Part shown: positions 610 through 6,692 of the stretch, piece after piece
Layout of the letters: each line of letters opens with the position of its first letter
Numbering within the stretch: the stretch's first letter is position 1
NCBI GenBank assembly: GCA_020846145.1
Contig: JADLEL010000007.1
Coordinates: forward strand, 1-64,000
Direction of reading: 5' to 3'
DNA from: Pirellulales bacterium
GTDB lineage: Bacteria > Planctomycetota > Planctomycetia > Pirellulales > Thermoguttaceae
Length of the DNA stretch: 64,000 nucleotides
The notes under the pieces: model-generated
Told to the model about the DNA's origin: nothing
What the model saw: only the letters and a program-made list of their open reading frames with translations
The model's database searches: none
Made by a program: the position numbers and the translations under genes

Positions 610-2202
610 TTATCCGCGTAAAAATCTCCTCCCGACGATTACGGCGGCCAGACCGGCGGCTAATAGGAGGAAGAGGTTGGGTTCGGGGACGGCAACGGTT
701 TGCGGCGTGCCGAGAATCAAGGCCGATTGGGTGATGGAAGCCGCGGTGAGCGAGGCACCGTCGTCAACGAGCAGGGTGCCCGCGCCGGTAATCGTGCCCA
801 ACAGGTGGCTGCCTTCTTCGATGCGCAGCATCGCGCCGGCCGCGACGTAGATTGCCGAATCGGTGGAGATATTGCCGCCGAGTTCCAAGGCCAGGGTGCC
901 GGATTCGACGCGCGTCGCGCCGCGATAGGTATTGTTGCCGCGGAGCATGACTTTGCCGCGTCCGGTTTTAACGATTCCGAACGCGCCGCCCGATTCGCCG
1001 ATTACGCCGCCGATGGTCAAATCGCCGCCGGCCGAGTGAAAAAATCGATTGCCGCCGTCGAGCAAGAGCGGCATGGCGAGGGTGATCGGTTCGACGCTCA
1101 GCGTACTCACGTCGCCGGTGAGTTTTAACGCATTCCCGTTCACGAAGAAGCATCCGCTGGCGATCGTGATCGAACTGTTGGCGGTATTGGCGGGCAAATC
1201 GTTGTTCAGGAATTGGCAGCCGGCGCCGGTGCCGGCGAATCGCCAAGCTTTCCCGGAACTCGGCGTCTGGCCGTTCCAATTGGCTGGATTGGAGATTAGT
1301 CCGTCGTTTCCGCCGTTATTCCAGACGATTTCGTTCGCGGGATTTCCCACGGTCGTGAGGTCATCGAGGGCGAAATACGTCGGCGTGTTGATGCCGAAGG
1401 CCGAGGAATCGGTCGAGAACAGGCGGAATTCCAACCCCGCGGCGGGACCGCCGAAGCTCGACAGATCGACCCACGTCCATTGGTTGCTGATGTAATTGCC
1501 CTTGACGGGATTGTCGGGCCGGCTGGCCGGATCGCGGAAATCGGCGAGATAGTAATCGACGCTTACGTCGCTGCCGTTCACGTTCAATCCGACGATCGTG
1601 AGCTTGAAGTAATCGCCCGTGGTGAATTGACGCGCCCAGTGCAAGGGGTCGCCTTCCTTCATGACGTAGTATGCCCAATTGTTGTTGGCCACATACATTC
1701 CGTTCAGCGTTGTCGGGGCGGAAAAGGCGACGGTCGGCTTAAAGGTCGTAGATACATAACCCATCGCATAATTGCCGGCGGGCGTGGCGGGATTCGCATC
1801 GCCGCCGGGGACCGCGTAAAACTCGCTCGCCCAGCCGGTAGGCACGGGATGCGGATTGCCGTTCGAGCCGTCGCCGGGATTGCCGTCGCCGGGCATGTAG
1901 TCGGCGGGATTGTGGGTCATGTTCGAATAGGCAAAGCCGGCATAGCTGTAATAGTTCAGGCTGTAACTATTGGAGAAATCGACGCCCGCACTCGTGAATT
2001 TTCCGATTTGCAGATCGTCCTCCCAAGGAGTCGTCTGATGCACGATCTGGCCGTTGGGGTCCGGCCCGCTCCAATGGCTTTGCGGGGCAAGCGCGAGGTC
2101 CTCGAAATCGACGGTTACGGCGCGAACTTGAGATACGCAAATCAACGCGCAGGCCGCGAGGGCCACGGGGGAGACACGGGAGAATGACGGGCAGCATTTC
2201 AT
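610..2202 (-). CDS. PEP-CTERM anchored exported protein with DUF4465-like and autotransporter-repeat regions
   Basis: A 530-residue exported protein. Residues 1-29 form a signal peptide (basic start, [10 protein letters not shown]-type hydrophobic core). Residues about 30-290 begin VDFEDLAL and carry GNYAMGYVS and YYLADFRDP stretches typical of DUF4465 secreted proteins. Residues about 290-500 contain a beta-helical region with one clear autotransporter-associated repeat ([20 protein letters not shown], then ESGTLAL). The C-terminus has VPEP near residue 505, a hydrophobic helix and a final RRFLRG: the PEP-CTERM sorting signal recognised by exosortase. The protein is probably processed and displayed at the surface or in extracellular matrix. 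No exosortase gene is in the window. ATG at 2202 is chosen because it directly precedes the signal peptide. Ligand unknown. Confidence 0.85.
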
Positions 2203-2479: not shown

Positions 2480-3328
2480 TTAAAATTCGCCCGGCGGTTC
2501 GCCGCCGTTGCGGGTGCAGAGGGCGGCGAGAATTTTCAGGTCGATTTCGTTGCGGAAAAAGCGCGCGGAGCCGTCGGCCAGCAATCCGTTCACGCCGCCG
2601 GGGTGCTTGCTGCGGGGATCGTTCTCGAAGGCCGGCGCGGCGTTGAGCGCGTAGGCCACGTCGAAAACGTTCAAGCCGTTGATCCACTGCATGTTCTTGC
2701 ACAGGCAGTCCTCGGAAACCATCAGCGTGTGGGCGGTGCCGTCGGCGATATCGCGGATGCGGACGGATTGACCGTAGAGCATCACTCCCCGCGGGGGATT
2801 GTTGCCGCTTACGATCCGCTCGCCGTAGATGCCGCCGTAATCGCACGCCCCGCGCCCTTGAATGAGGAACGATTGCCGGCTCACGCTGGGACACAAATAC
2901 ACGGGGATGATTTCGGCGGCGGCCCGTGCATTCTCCGGGCTGTCGAACGCCTTTTTGAAGTCGATCCGGCCGGCCAGCGACTTCAACTCGAGGTACGGCA
3001 GAATGTAGGCCGACCAGGCCAACTGCCTGCCGTTCGGATAGAGCAGGCTCCCGCTGGGAGAGACCAACATTCGCATTTCCACGCCGCCTTCGGGAAACCG
3101 CTTGTGGCAATCGTGATAGCTCAGCAAGCCGATGCCGATCTGATGCAGATTGTTCGAGCAGCCCAAGCGTCGGGCGGCCTCGCGCACCGCTTGCACGGCG
3201 GGCAGCAGGAGCGAGATCAACAGCCCGATAACGGCGATCACGACCAGCAATTCGACCAGCGAAAAGCCGGCGCGGCGCAAGCTACGGGAATGCGGCACCG
3301 AATCCAACCGATTACGTCGAGGCGACAT
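2480..3328 (-). CDS. DUF1559 family pseudopilin-like protein
   Basis: 282 residues. Near the N-terminus RRAGFSLVELLVVIAVIGLL is a type IV prepilin-like cleavage/methylation motif (G before F, Glu at mature position 5) leading into a hydrophobic helix. It is followed by LLLPAVQAVREAARRLGCSN, the hallmark start of the DUF1559 domain, very expanded in Planctomycetota. The C-terminus has HPGGVNGLLADGSARF, the usual H...DG end motif. The role of these proteins is not established; the N-terminus predicts processing by a prepilin peptidase and membrane insertion. Start ATG 3328. A cobalamin riboswitch lies about 155 bp upstream on the same strand, but a small broken frame and a palindrome intervene, so B12 control is uncertain. 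Confidence 0.9.
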   Translation of the reverse strand: MSPRRNRLDSVPHSRSLRRAGFSLVELLVVIAVIGLLISLLLPAVQAVREAARRLGCSNNLHQIGIGLLSYHDCHKRFPEGGVEMRMLVSPSGSLLYPNGRQLAWSAYILPYLELKSLAGRIDFKKAFDSPENARAAAEIIPVYLCPSVSRQSFLIQGRGACDYGGIYGERIVSGNNPPRGVMLYGQSVRIRDIADGTAHTLMVSEDCLCKNMQWINGLNVFDVAYALNAAPAFENDPRSKHPGGVNGLLADGSARFFRNEIDLKILAALCTRNGGEPPGEF

Positions 3329-3355: not shown

Positions 3356-3445
3356 TTAAGTAGGACAGGTTTCTAACCTGTCTCGAAAACTTATGACAGG
3401 TTGGAAACCTGTCCTACGAACTTTCACCGCGCCTAGCAACGACAT
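3356..3445 (-). pseudogene. Truncated remnant of the riboswitch-controlled gene
   Basis: ATG at 3445 is preceded on the minus strand by GGAGG with 8 nt spacing, directly downstream of the cobalamin riboswitch. Translation gives MSLLGAVKV and then runs into a palindromic repeat (3361-3416), ending after 29 residues. The ribosome-binding site and start look genuine, but the product beyond about 9 residues is repeat-derived. I infer that the original B12-regulated gene (often a transporter or B12-independent isoenzyme in other bacteria) was lost by deletion or insertion. It cannot be identified from what is left. Confidence 0.55.
3361..3416. repeat. Palindromic repeat (GACAGGTTGGAAACCTGTC type)
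   Basis: Arms at 3361-3382 and 3395-3416 are near-perfect inverted copies of TAGGACAGGTTTC-AACCTGTC, and each arm is itself partly palindromic. A REP-like dispersed element inserted in the leader between the riboswitch and the DUF1559 gene. Confidence 0.85.
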
Positions 3446-3453
3446 ATTCGCGG

Positions 3454-3472
3454 CCTCCGACCCTCGCGGAGG
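3454..3472 (-). promoter_or_regulatory. Expression platform: SD/anti-SD hairpin of the cobalamin riboswitch
   Basis: On the minus strand CCTCCG (3472-3467) can pair with CGGAGG (3459-3454), which is the Shine-Dalgarno sequence of the ATG at 3445. A hairpin that hides the ribosome-binding site directly after the aptamer is the usual layout of translation-controlling B12 riboswitches. No T-run follows, so termination control is less likely. Confidence 0.6.
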
Positions 3473-3483
3473 AACCGACGTTT

Positions 3484-3698
3484 CGCGTTGGTAGGTCTTC
3501 TGACTCCCGAGCAGGGGGCAATCCGGCCTTCTCATCCCGCAAGAGGAAATATCGATTTCCACTATGCGGGACAATGGCCACAAAAACAGAGAGGATTGTC
3601 CTTCTTACGCTCGGTCACAGCGGCGGGGCCGTCCCGGTTTAATGCCGGAGTTCCCTGTTCGTCGGCGCTTCGAGCAGAAGCCGCCGACCACCAACGCG
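3484..3698 (-). promoter_or_regulatory. Cobalamin (B12) riboswitch aptamer
   Basis: Read on the minus strand, the region contains in order AGGGAACTCCGG, AAACCGGGACGGCCCCGCC, GCTGTGACCGAG, GGGATGAGAAGGCCGG, and GGGAGTCAGAAGACCTACC. These are the conserved blocks of the cobalamin aptamer, including the B12-box-like part and the 3' AGTCAGAAGACCTACC. The closing stem P1 is visible: CGCGTTGG (3698-3691) pairs perfectly with CCAACGCG (3491-3484), extended by GGTC/GACC. In the family, adenosyl- or methylcobalamin binding turns expression off. The next full gene on this strand is the DUF1559 protein, an unusual target. Confidence 0.9.
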
Positions 3699-4028
3699 CC
3701 GAAGTATGTTTTGAATTTAGCAGAAGCGTGCTCGTTTGTAAAGGGGGGCGATATCGAAAAGCAGAAGCCGAATTGAAAATAATCCGCCACCCCGTTATTT
3801 AGTATCGCCATCCCCGCCGCGCGACGGGTTTTTTCGCCTCTCTCATCTCGATCACCCTTCCGGCTTGCAAAATCCCGGTTAAAGCCTAAAATGATTCTCT
3901 TTTAGATTTGCCATGACTATCGAGACGGTTTTGCGGCTCCCCAAGTGCGGGTGGATCGCGACCGACGAGGCCAGGGCACACATGAACGGTAGAAAGTCCG
4001 GAAACGGCCGAGGAGCTTATTCGACGCG
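3699..4028. other. Intergenic region upstream of nuoA
   Basis: No convincing gene. It must hold the promoter of the riboswitch transcript (minus) and of the nuo operon (plus). A 44-codon frame from ATG 3913 overlaps the nuoA start out of frame and has no recognisable features. Confidence 0.5.
3865..3892 (+). promoter_or_regulatory. Possible sigma-70 promoter of the nuo operon
   Basis: TTGCAA (3865-3870), 16 nt spacer, TAAAAT (3887-3892): a fair match to TTGACA/TATAAT, about 135 bp before nuoA. No other good candidate was noticed in the gap; unproven. Confidence 0.35.
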
Positions 4029-6499: not shown

Positions 6500-6692
6500 A
6501 AGGAAAGGATGAAGTATGAAGGATGAAGGATGAAGGATGAAGGATGAAGGATGAAGGATGAAGGATGAAGGATGAATGACGAATGATACAGGGTGAATGA
6601 GGATCGGAAGGACTATTTCAAATCCCAAATTTCAAATCCCTACCCCCTATCCCCTATCCCCTATCCCCTGCCCCCTATCCCCTATCCCCTGC
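6500..6692. repeat. Heptamer arrays (ATGAAGG and CCCCTAT types)
   Basis: Two different 7-bp repeats occupy the nuoD to hypothetical-gene gap: about ten units related to GGATGAA (6505-6580) and about eight of CCCTATC (6640-6692). Confidence 0.85.

Follow-up and report, generated by a model that had tools for sequence, protein, structure and literature searches.

The question raised by this locus is what a cobalamin riboswitch controls when the gene that follows it encodes a DUF1559 pseudopilin. In the preliminary description two answers were offered, both regarded as unusual: either the switch had been decapitated and its own gene lost, or it now controlled the pseudopilin transcript. The window, i.e., the whole stretch of 64,000 nucleotides analysed, carries the following features in and around the locus:

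3714-3742, minus strand: promoter-like site TTTACA-17-TAAATT with TG before the second hexamer (9/12 matches, a weak consensus match)
3473-3710, minus strand: cobalamin riboswitch aptamer, RF00174 (76.0 bits, gathering cut-off 31.5)
3454-3472, minus strand: P13 hairpin, CCTCCG[CGAGGGT]CGGAGG (stem covariation across 55 riboswitch loci)
3356-3445, minus strand: short leader ORF of 29 codons, MSLLGAVKV... (probable chance ORF, ATG not conserved)
3360-3417, no strand assigned: dispersed repeat of REPIN-like type, formed by an inverted pair of GACAGGTT palindromes (97 hits at about 40 distinct places of the genome)
2480-3328, minus strand: DUF1559 pseudopilin (PF07596) of a riboswitch-linked clade, with prepilin N-terminus and H-X9-DG motif
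610-2202, minus strand: putative B12-binding protein of secreted appearance, comprising a DUF4465 domain (PF14717), an autotransporter-type repeat and a PEP-CTERM-like tail

The RF00174 match spans model positions 1-189, the full length of the model (cmscan, E 6.1e-17), with a score far over the family threshold, and a complete cobalamin riboswitch is therefore present as had been described. The perfect P1 stem was likewise confirmed, the inner strands GCGUUGGU and ACCAACGC being fully paired. This match (3710-3473) was the sole Rfam match found by cmscan within the window, and no second cobalamin riboswitch was found by whole-genome search in the 5.8-Mb assembly of the window's own genome (Thermoguttaceae, Pirellulales; labelled G000). 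The promoter-like site stops 4 nt ahead of the aptamer. As in the E. coli btuB riboswitch, which serves as the model of an off-switch, the aptamer is of the AdoCbl type and has a P13 hairpin taking part in a pseudoknot (PMC11162775). The E. coli riboswitch differs in that it controls a TonB-dependent receptor and that a separate helix, P14, masks the Shine-Dalgarno (SD) sequence there (PMC11162775); no conserved equivalent of P14 was found in leaders of the type seen in the window.

The hairpin behind the aptamer had been taken as an anti-SD/SD device. The hairpin itself, its GGAGG, the 8-nt spacer and the ATG at 3445 are all present, but the hairpin is better described as the P13/L13 pseudoknot element. 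Its loop (CGAGGG) is complementary to L5 (CCCCGC; CCCCGCCGCTGT), as in a kissing-loop interaction. Across the 55 loci, 82 compensatory cells were counted in the P13 stem versus 31 +/- 7 in shuffles, with none of 2000 shuffles as high, and this support is strong but short of decisive because the shuffles ignore the relatedness of the loci. The 3' strand of P13 is SD-like in the window (GGAGG) and mostly not SD-like among relatives, so that sequestration of the SD was rejected as the general expression platform.

The loss of a gene, by which insertion of a repeat or a deletion would have removed a B12 gene starting with MSLLGAVKV and left an orphan switch, draws on the short frame behind P13. 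From the ATG at 3445, which a good SD precedes by 8 nt, this frame is translated as MSLLGAVKVRRTGFQPVISFRDRLETCPT followed by a stop (29 aa), and it does run into the GACAGGTT palindrome of the dispersed repeat as described. However, no conservation of an ATG after P13 was seen among the leaders of relatives, and the leader ORF was accordingly rejected as a conserved peptide. The lack of conservation of this start codon, together with a P13 whose 3' strand does not resemble an SD in most relatives, makes MSLLGAVKV most likely a chance ORF. Moreover, removal of the 58-nt repeat leaves the frame out of register with DUF1559, which excludes the ORF as a severed N-terminus as long as the flanks were left unchanged by the insertion. 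The pseudopilin for its part has a normal N-terminus, with a segment of about 20 residues before the motif and its own weak GAGGT site. Together with DUF1559 being the next gene in relatives as well (see below), these results make decapitation of the riboswitch highly improbable.

REPIN/RAYT repeats are short palindromes in inverted pairs that are dispersed through a genome, with Y1 transposases encoded in the same genome. The GACAGGTT palindrome noted in the preliminary description is present at 3360-3417, and the repeat there resembles REPINs in its inverted palindrome pair, in its dispersal in G000 and in the Y1 transposases encoded by that genome; it was absent from all 80 other riboswitch leaders. 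Based on its approximately 40 copies, the Y1 transposases and its absence from the other leaders, it can be read as a REPIN-like insertion that is probably tolerated in the riboswitch leader. The distance from the end of the aptamer to the pilin motif is 204 nt in the window and variable among relatives (median 206 nt), which indicates that extra leader sequence is tolerated; by the same wide variation, leader length was rejected as a means of spotting the insertion. The first palindrome with a T-rich stretch (3395-3413, minus strand) resembles a weak intrinsic terminator. An intrinsic terminator in the leader was rejected, the repeat palindrome being the sole candidate and showing no excess over shuffles.

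Placed downstream of P13 and ahead of the DUF1559 gene, the repeat could alter control. The operon might be ancestral and its control broken or changed in G000 alone, e.g., if the repeat acted as a constitutive attenuator at this position, for which role the terminator-like first palindrome would be a candidate in spite of its lack of excess over shuffles. The intact aptamer and P13 and the variable leader length of relatives argue against such a change, and we regard it as unlikely.

The gene after the leader encodes a DUF1559 pseudopilin, in agreement with the preliminary description (PF07596, 148.1 bits with a cut-off of 23.3; PF07963, 26 bits with a cut-off of 21.2; H-X9-DG motif, 33.5 bits). 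The prepilin N-terminus, DUF1559 domain and C-terminal H-X9-DG motif are those of the DUF1559 (SBP_bac_10, PF07596) family, which with 68 members outnumbers every other paralog family in Planctopirus limnophila, is apparently restricted to Planctomycetes and has no assigned function (PMC10632474). In G000, DUF1559 genes number about 48 and make up roughly 1% of all genes. Orthologs in Pirellulales share 52-60% identity with the pseudopilin of the window and have invariant blocks including DYGG and a C-terminal CTR. The structure model of this protein (pLDDT 50) was set aside.

Cobalamin riboswitches were detected in 55 of 60 genomes of the same family and order, each from another genus. The DNA downstream of the 80 other riboswitch matches was searched with profiles built from that same set, the window making the 81st. 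DUF1559 was the next gene after 45 of the 81 riboswitches (44 of 80 without the window), with a chance expectation of approximately 1 in 81; the binomial p is about 2e-58 at a generous 1.5%, although genomes related by descent do not count as independent draws. DUF4465 was found downstream of 34 of the 81, and 24 had both DUF1559 as the next gene and DUF4465, while a few had the opposite order. At loci without DUF4465, another PEP-CTERM protein often followed DUF1559, and two riboswitch-DUF1559 operons also carried the corrinoid adenosyltransferase BtuR/CobO (PF02572; L074:2799-3320 and L104:1495-2013). The checked riboswitches outside the module mostly precede standard genes of the B12 regulon, i.e., those for ribonucleotide reductases, NrdD, MetE, CobU with a CobT-type phosphoribosyltransferase, a BtuB-like TonB receptor, TonB, BtuF and CbiX. 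At three loci cobalamin riboswitches occurred in pairs, arranged back to back, divergently or in succession within one operon (L133, G027:C58:8197-8683; L094, G033:C418:2149-2705; L108, G037:C2:430917-432561).

The order of riboswitch and DUF1559 gene is thus conserved in relatives, and the gene loss of the preliminary description did not hold. The order is common, though not invariable, and comes near to the condition that the preliminary description had named for its own refutation. For the other reading, control of the pseudopilin transcript by the switch, there is support at the level of a prediction, with the difference that the arrangement is a conserved one and not a recent accident. 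Assignment of the riboswitch to the pseudopilin operon is strong.

The pseudopilins at these loci also stand apart from the wider DUF1559 family (PMC10632474) by their phylogeny. In a tree of 50 DUF1559 proteins from riboswitch loci and 40 paralogs of G000, 41 of the former, including that of the window, formed one clade (support 99/94) with none of the 40 paralogs inside; of the remainder, eight fell into a second clade (100/100) and one stood alone. The riboswitch-locus label required 3 changes on the tree versus 29.6 in shuffles. Scores with the DUF1559 profile were 342-404 bits for named genomes outside the training set, versus at most 231 bits for the 40 paralogs; the profile was trained on riboswitch loci, and its tight scores there are partly circular. 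The second clade comprises eight loci in which DUF1559 follows a cobalamin riboswitch without DUF4465 (L097, L130, L091, L112, L101, L092, L093 and L123).

In the preliminary description the gene next to the switch was said not to be B12-related, and the gene after the pseudopilin (2202-610) was overlooked: it carries the B12-binding DUF4465 domain, which makes the operon B12-related. The encoded protein has 530 aa (PF14717, 132.7 bits with a cut-off of 25, 2.4e-38), and its PEP-CTERM-like tail is C-terminal. B12 binding was shown experimentally for the DUF4465 proteins BtuJ1 and BtuJ2 of Bacteroides thetaiotaomicron (PMC12751083) and, in all, for eight divergent members of the family, one of them from the planctomycete Mucisphaera (PMC13398666). 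The domain in the window retains the HI loop NTPxYF including the tyrosine that contacts B12 (motif from PMC13398666). The AlphaFold model has a mean pLDDT of 69, with mostly 77-93 per ten-residue block in the domain core and parts of low confidence. In a structure search with this model, the top match was 9hmu, a B12 complex (E 1.8e-13), with BtuJ1 and BtuJ2 among the next matches; by its best matches (9hmu, 4jqr, 9qpm and 9fct, E 1.8e-13 and weaker) the modelled domain has the augmented beta-jellyroll fold. Judged from domain, loop and predicted fold, the protein would bind B12. The DUF1559 and DUF4465 genes are separated by 277 nt including repeats, and their operon is a prediction; inverted repeats CCCAGGGCAACGCCCTGGG and TGGATCGGCGCTGCGCTTGATCCA occur in this interval (2202-2480). 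Elsewhere in the window, a serine hydroxymethyltransferase-like fragment of about 50 profile residues lies beside the contig start (78-572, minus strand) and is probably a gene remnant, and simple tandem repeats of GGATGAA and CCCCTATC occur between nuo genes (6500-6690).

The locus is comparable to the btu operons of B. thetaiotaomicron, in which a cobalamin riboswitch stands upstream of the secreted DUF4465 proteins BtuJ1 and BtuJ2, and the window protein shares with these the predicted fold and the conserved NTPxY loop (PMC12751083; PMC13398666). The partners differ: BtuB/TonB receptors, BtuG/BtuH lipoproteins and ABC genes in B. thetaiotaomicron (PMC12751083; PMC13398666), a DUF1559 pseudopilin in the window, where the DUF4465 protein has a PEP-CTERM-like tail rather than being a lipoprotein, and where the locus is devoid of a TonB receptor. 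In a published study of DUF4465 gene neighbourhoods the reported partners are of the TonB and ABC kinds, and neither DUF1559 nor pilins are mentioned in its text (PMC13398666); in the open-access literature searched no paper was found that ties DUF1559, pilins or PEP-CTERM to cobalamin riboswitches of planctomycetes. The arrangement is a conserved and apparently undescribed planctomycete variant of the locus for B12 acquisition under riboswitch control, in which a pseudopilin takes the position expected of a TonB receptor.

This difference extends across phyla. A total of 84,980 species genomes were scanned with a DUF4465 alignment, a narrower one than the first broad alignment, which had no stretch conserved enough for searching, and the best 80 loci were kept. 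Many of them lie on cut contigs, so that the presence counts given here are lower bounds. A cobalamin riboswitch was located upstream on the same strand in 65 of these best 80 loci. Among the same 80, a DUF1559 gene was present at 41 of the 46 planctomycete loci versus 2 of the 34 others (Fisher 9e-15), both of the latter titled merely 'uncultured bacterium', and a BtuB-like TonB receptor at none of the 46 versus 14 of the 34 (9e-7). The DUF1559 gene of Pirellulales loci is placed after the riboswitch and before DUF4465; that of Phycisphaerae loci scores lower (75-108 bits) and is found some 1.5-3 kb downstream from where DUF4465 starts.

The B12 economy of the genome is consistent with import. 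MetH and a BtuC-like permease are encoded in G000 and no CbiC was found there, so that the bacterium probably uses B12 without de novo synthesis by the CbiC route. No TonB receptor was present among the gene calls of the window operon; the sole PF00593 match of the genome is on another contig (C81) and could be its BtuB. Among 15 relatives without a detected TonB receptor, 12 carry the module (counted by hand).

Based on these results, it is quite probable that the locus is an operon for B12 acquisition controlled by a cobalamin riboswitch, in which a DUF4465 capture protein and a pseudopilin would act together and pseudopilin-aided delivery would replace a linked BtuB/TonB receptor. At low B12 the empty aptamer would leave the operon expressed, yielding the pseudopilin and the secreted PEP-CTERM/DUF4465 protein, whose domain would capture B12 outside the cell. 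The pseudopilin may help to move the captured B12 over the outer membrane, in place of a linked receptor, and a BtuC-type ABC permease would then import it. When B12 is abundant, P13 would be locked by the bound ligand together with the kissing of L5 and L13, and the operon would be turned off. Repression by B12 is presumed here as it is usual for such RNA. The E. coli btuB riboswitch acts on translation and through Rho (PMC11162775), and by analogy the off-switch may be a block of translation, Rho-dependent, or both; the long distance from P13 to the gene start would make Rho or other control at the transcript level as likely as direct occlusion of the ribosome-binding site. The sequence-based parts of this model are the aptamer, the P13 covariation, the conserved gene order, both protein families and the finding that the locus contains no TonB receptor. 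The B12 role of the operon is well supported by inference, and the role of the pseudopilin in delivery would be its least certain step.

The gene context would fit equally a pseudopilin that moves B12 and one that serves secretion or display only. In the latter case, the operon would still be controlled by B12, the pseudopilin would be a type II secretion-like factor for the DUF4465 protein, and uptake would proceed by the lone TonB receptor or a porin. DUF1559 proteins do resemble type II secretion pseudopilins, the DUF4465 protein must get to the surface, and G000 has its one TonB receptor. On the other hand, other phyla export DUF4465 proteins without a DUF1559 partner, as the 2 of 34 loci above indicate, and the module persists in the 12 relatives that lack a detected receptor. 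A role confined to secretion or display is thus a reasonable contender, though we lean against it.

The preferred reading, acquisition of B12 aided by the pseudopilin, could be extended to planctomycetes in general, in which a dedicated DUF1559 pseudopilin and a surface DUF4465 B12-binding protein would together bring B12 through the outer membrane independently of TonB, and further to DUF1559 paralogs, which would serve a pilus-like machinery for nutrient uptake as partners for particular substrates. This extension is tentative and rather doubtful; if true, the dozens of DUF1559 paralogs per genome would be such partners. A DUF1559 clade under cobalamin riboswitches, beside a B12-binding family and with the usual receptor absent, gives DUF1559 a specific and testable substrate link, and it bears on how planctomycetes that depend on B12 and possess few TonB receptors, or none, are supplied with it.

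Two further observations concern loci in other groups. At two deltaproteobacterial loci, c-di-GMP-type riboswitches (RF03167 and RF01051; L193:3538-3615 and L254:1937-2033) are in tandem with a cobalamin riboswitch upstream of DUF4465, which suggests double control of the DUF4465 B12 protein. A PEP-CTERM-type family that starts with AGPFAPAAGQPGSTAI and lacks its own Pfam domain was seen repeatedly in proteobacterial and planctomycete cobalamin-riboswitch loci, often beside DUF4465, with members at:

L244:2962-3786
L260:2954-3739
L118:613-1443
L062:1567-2472
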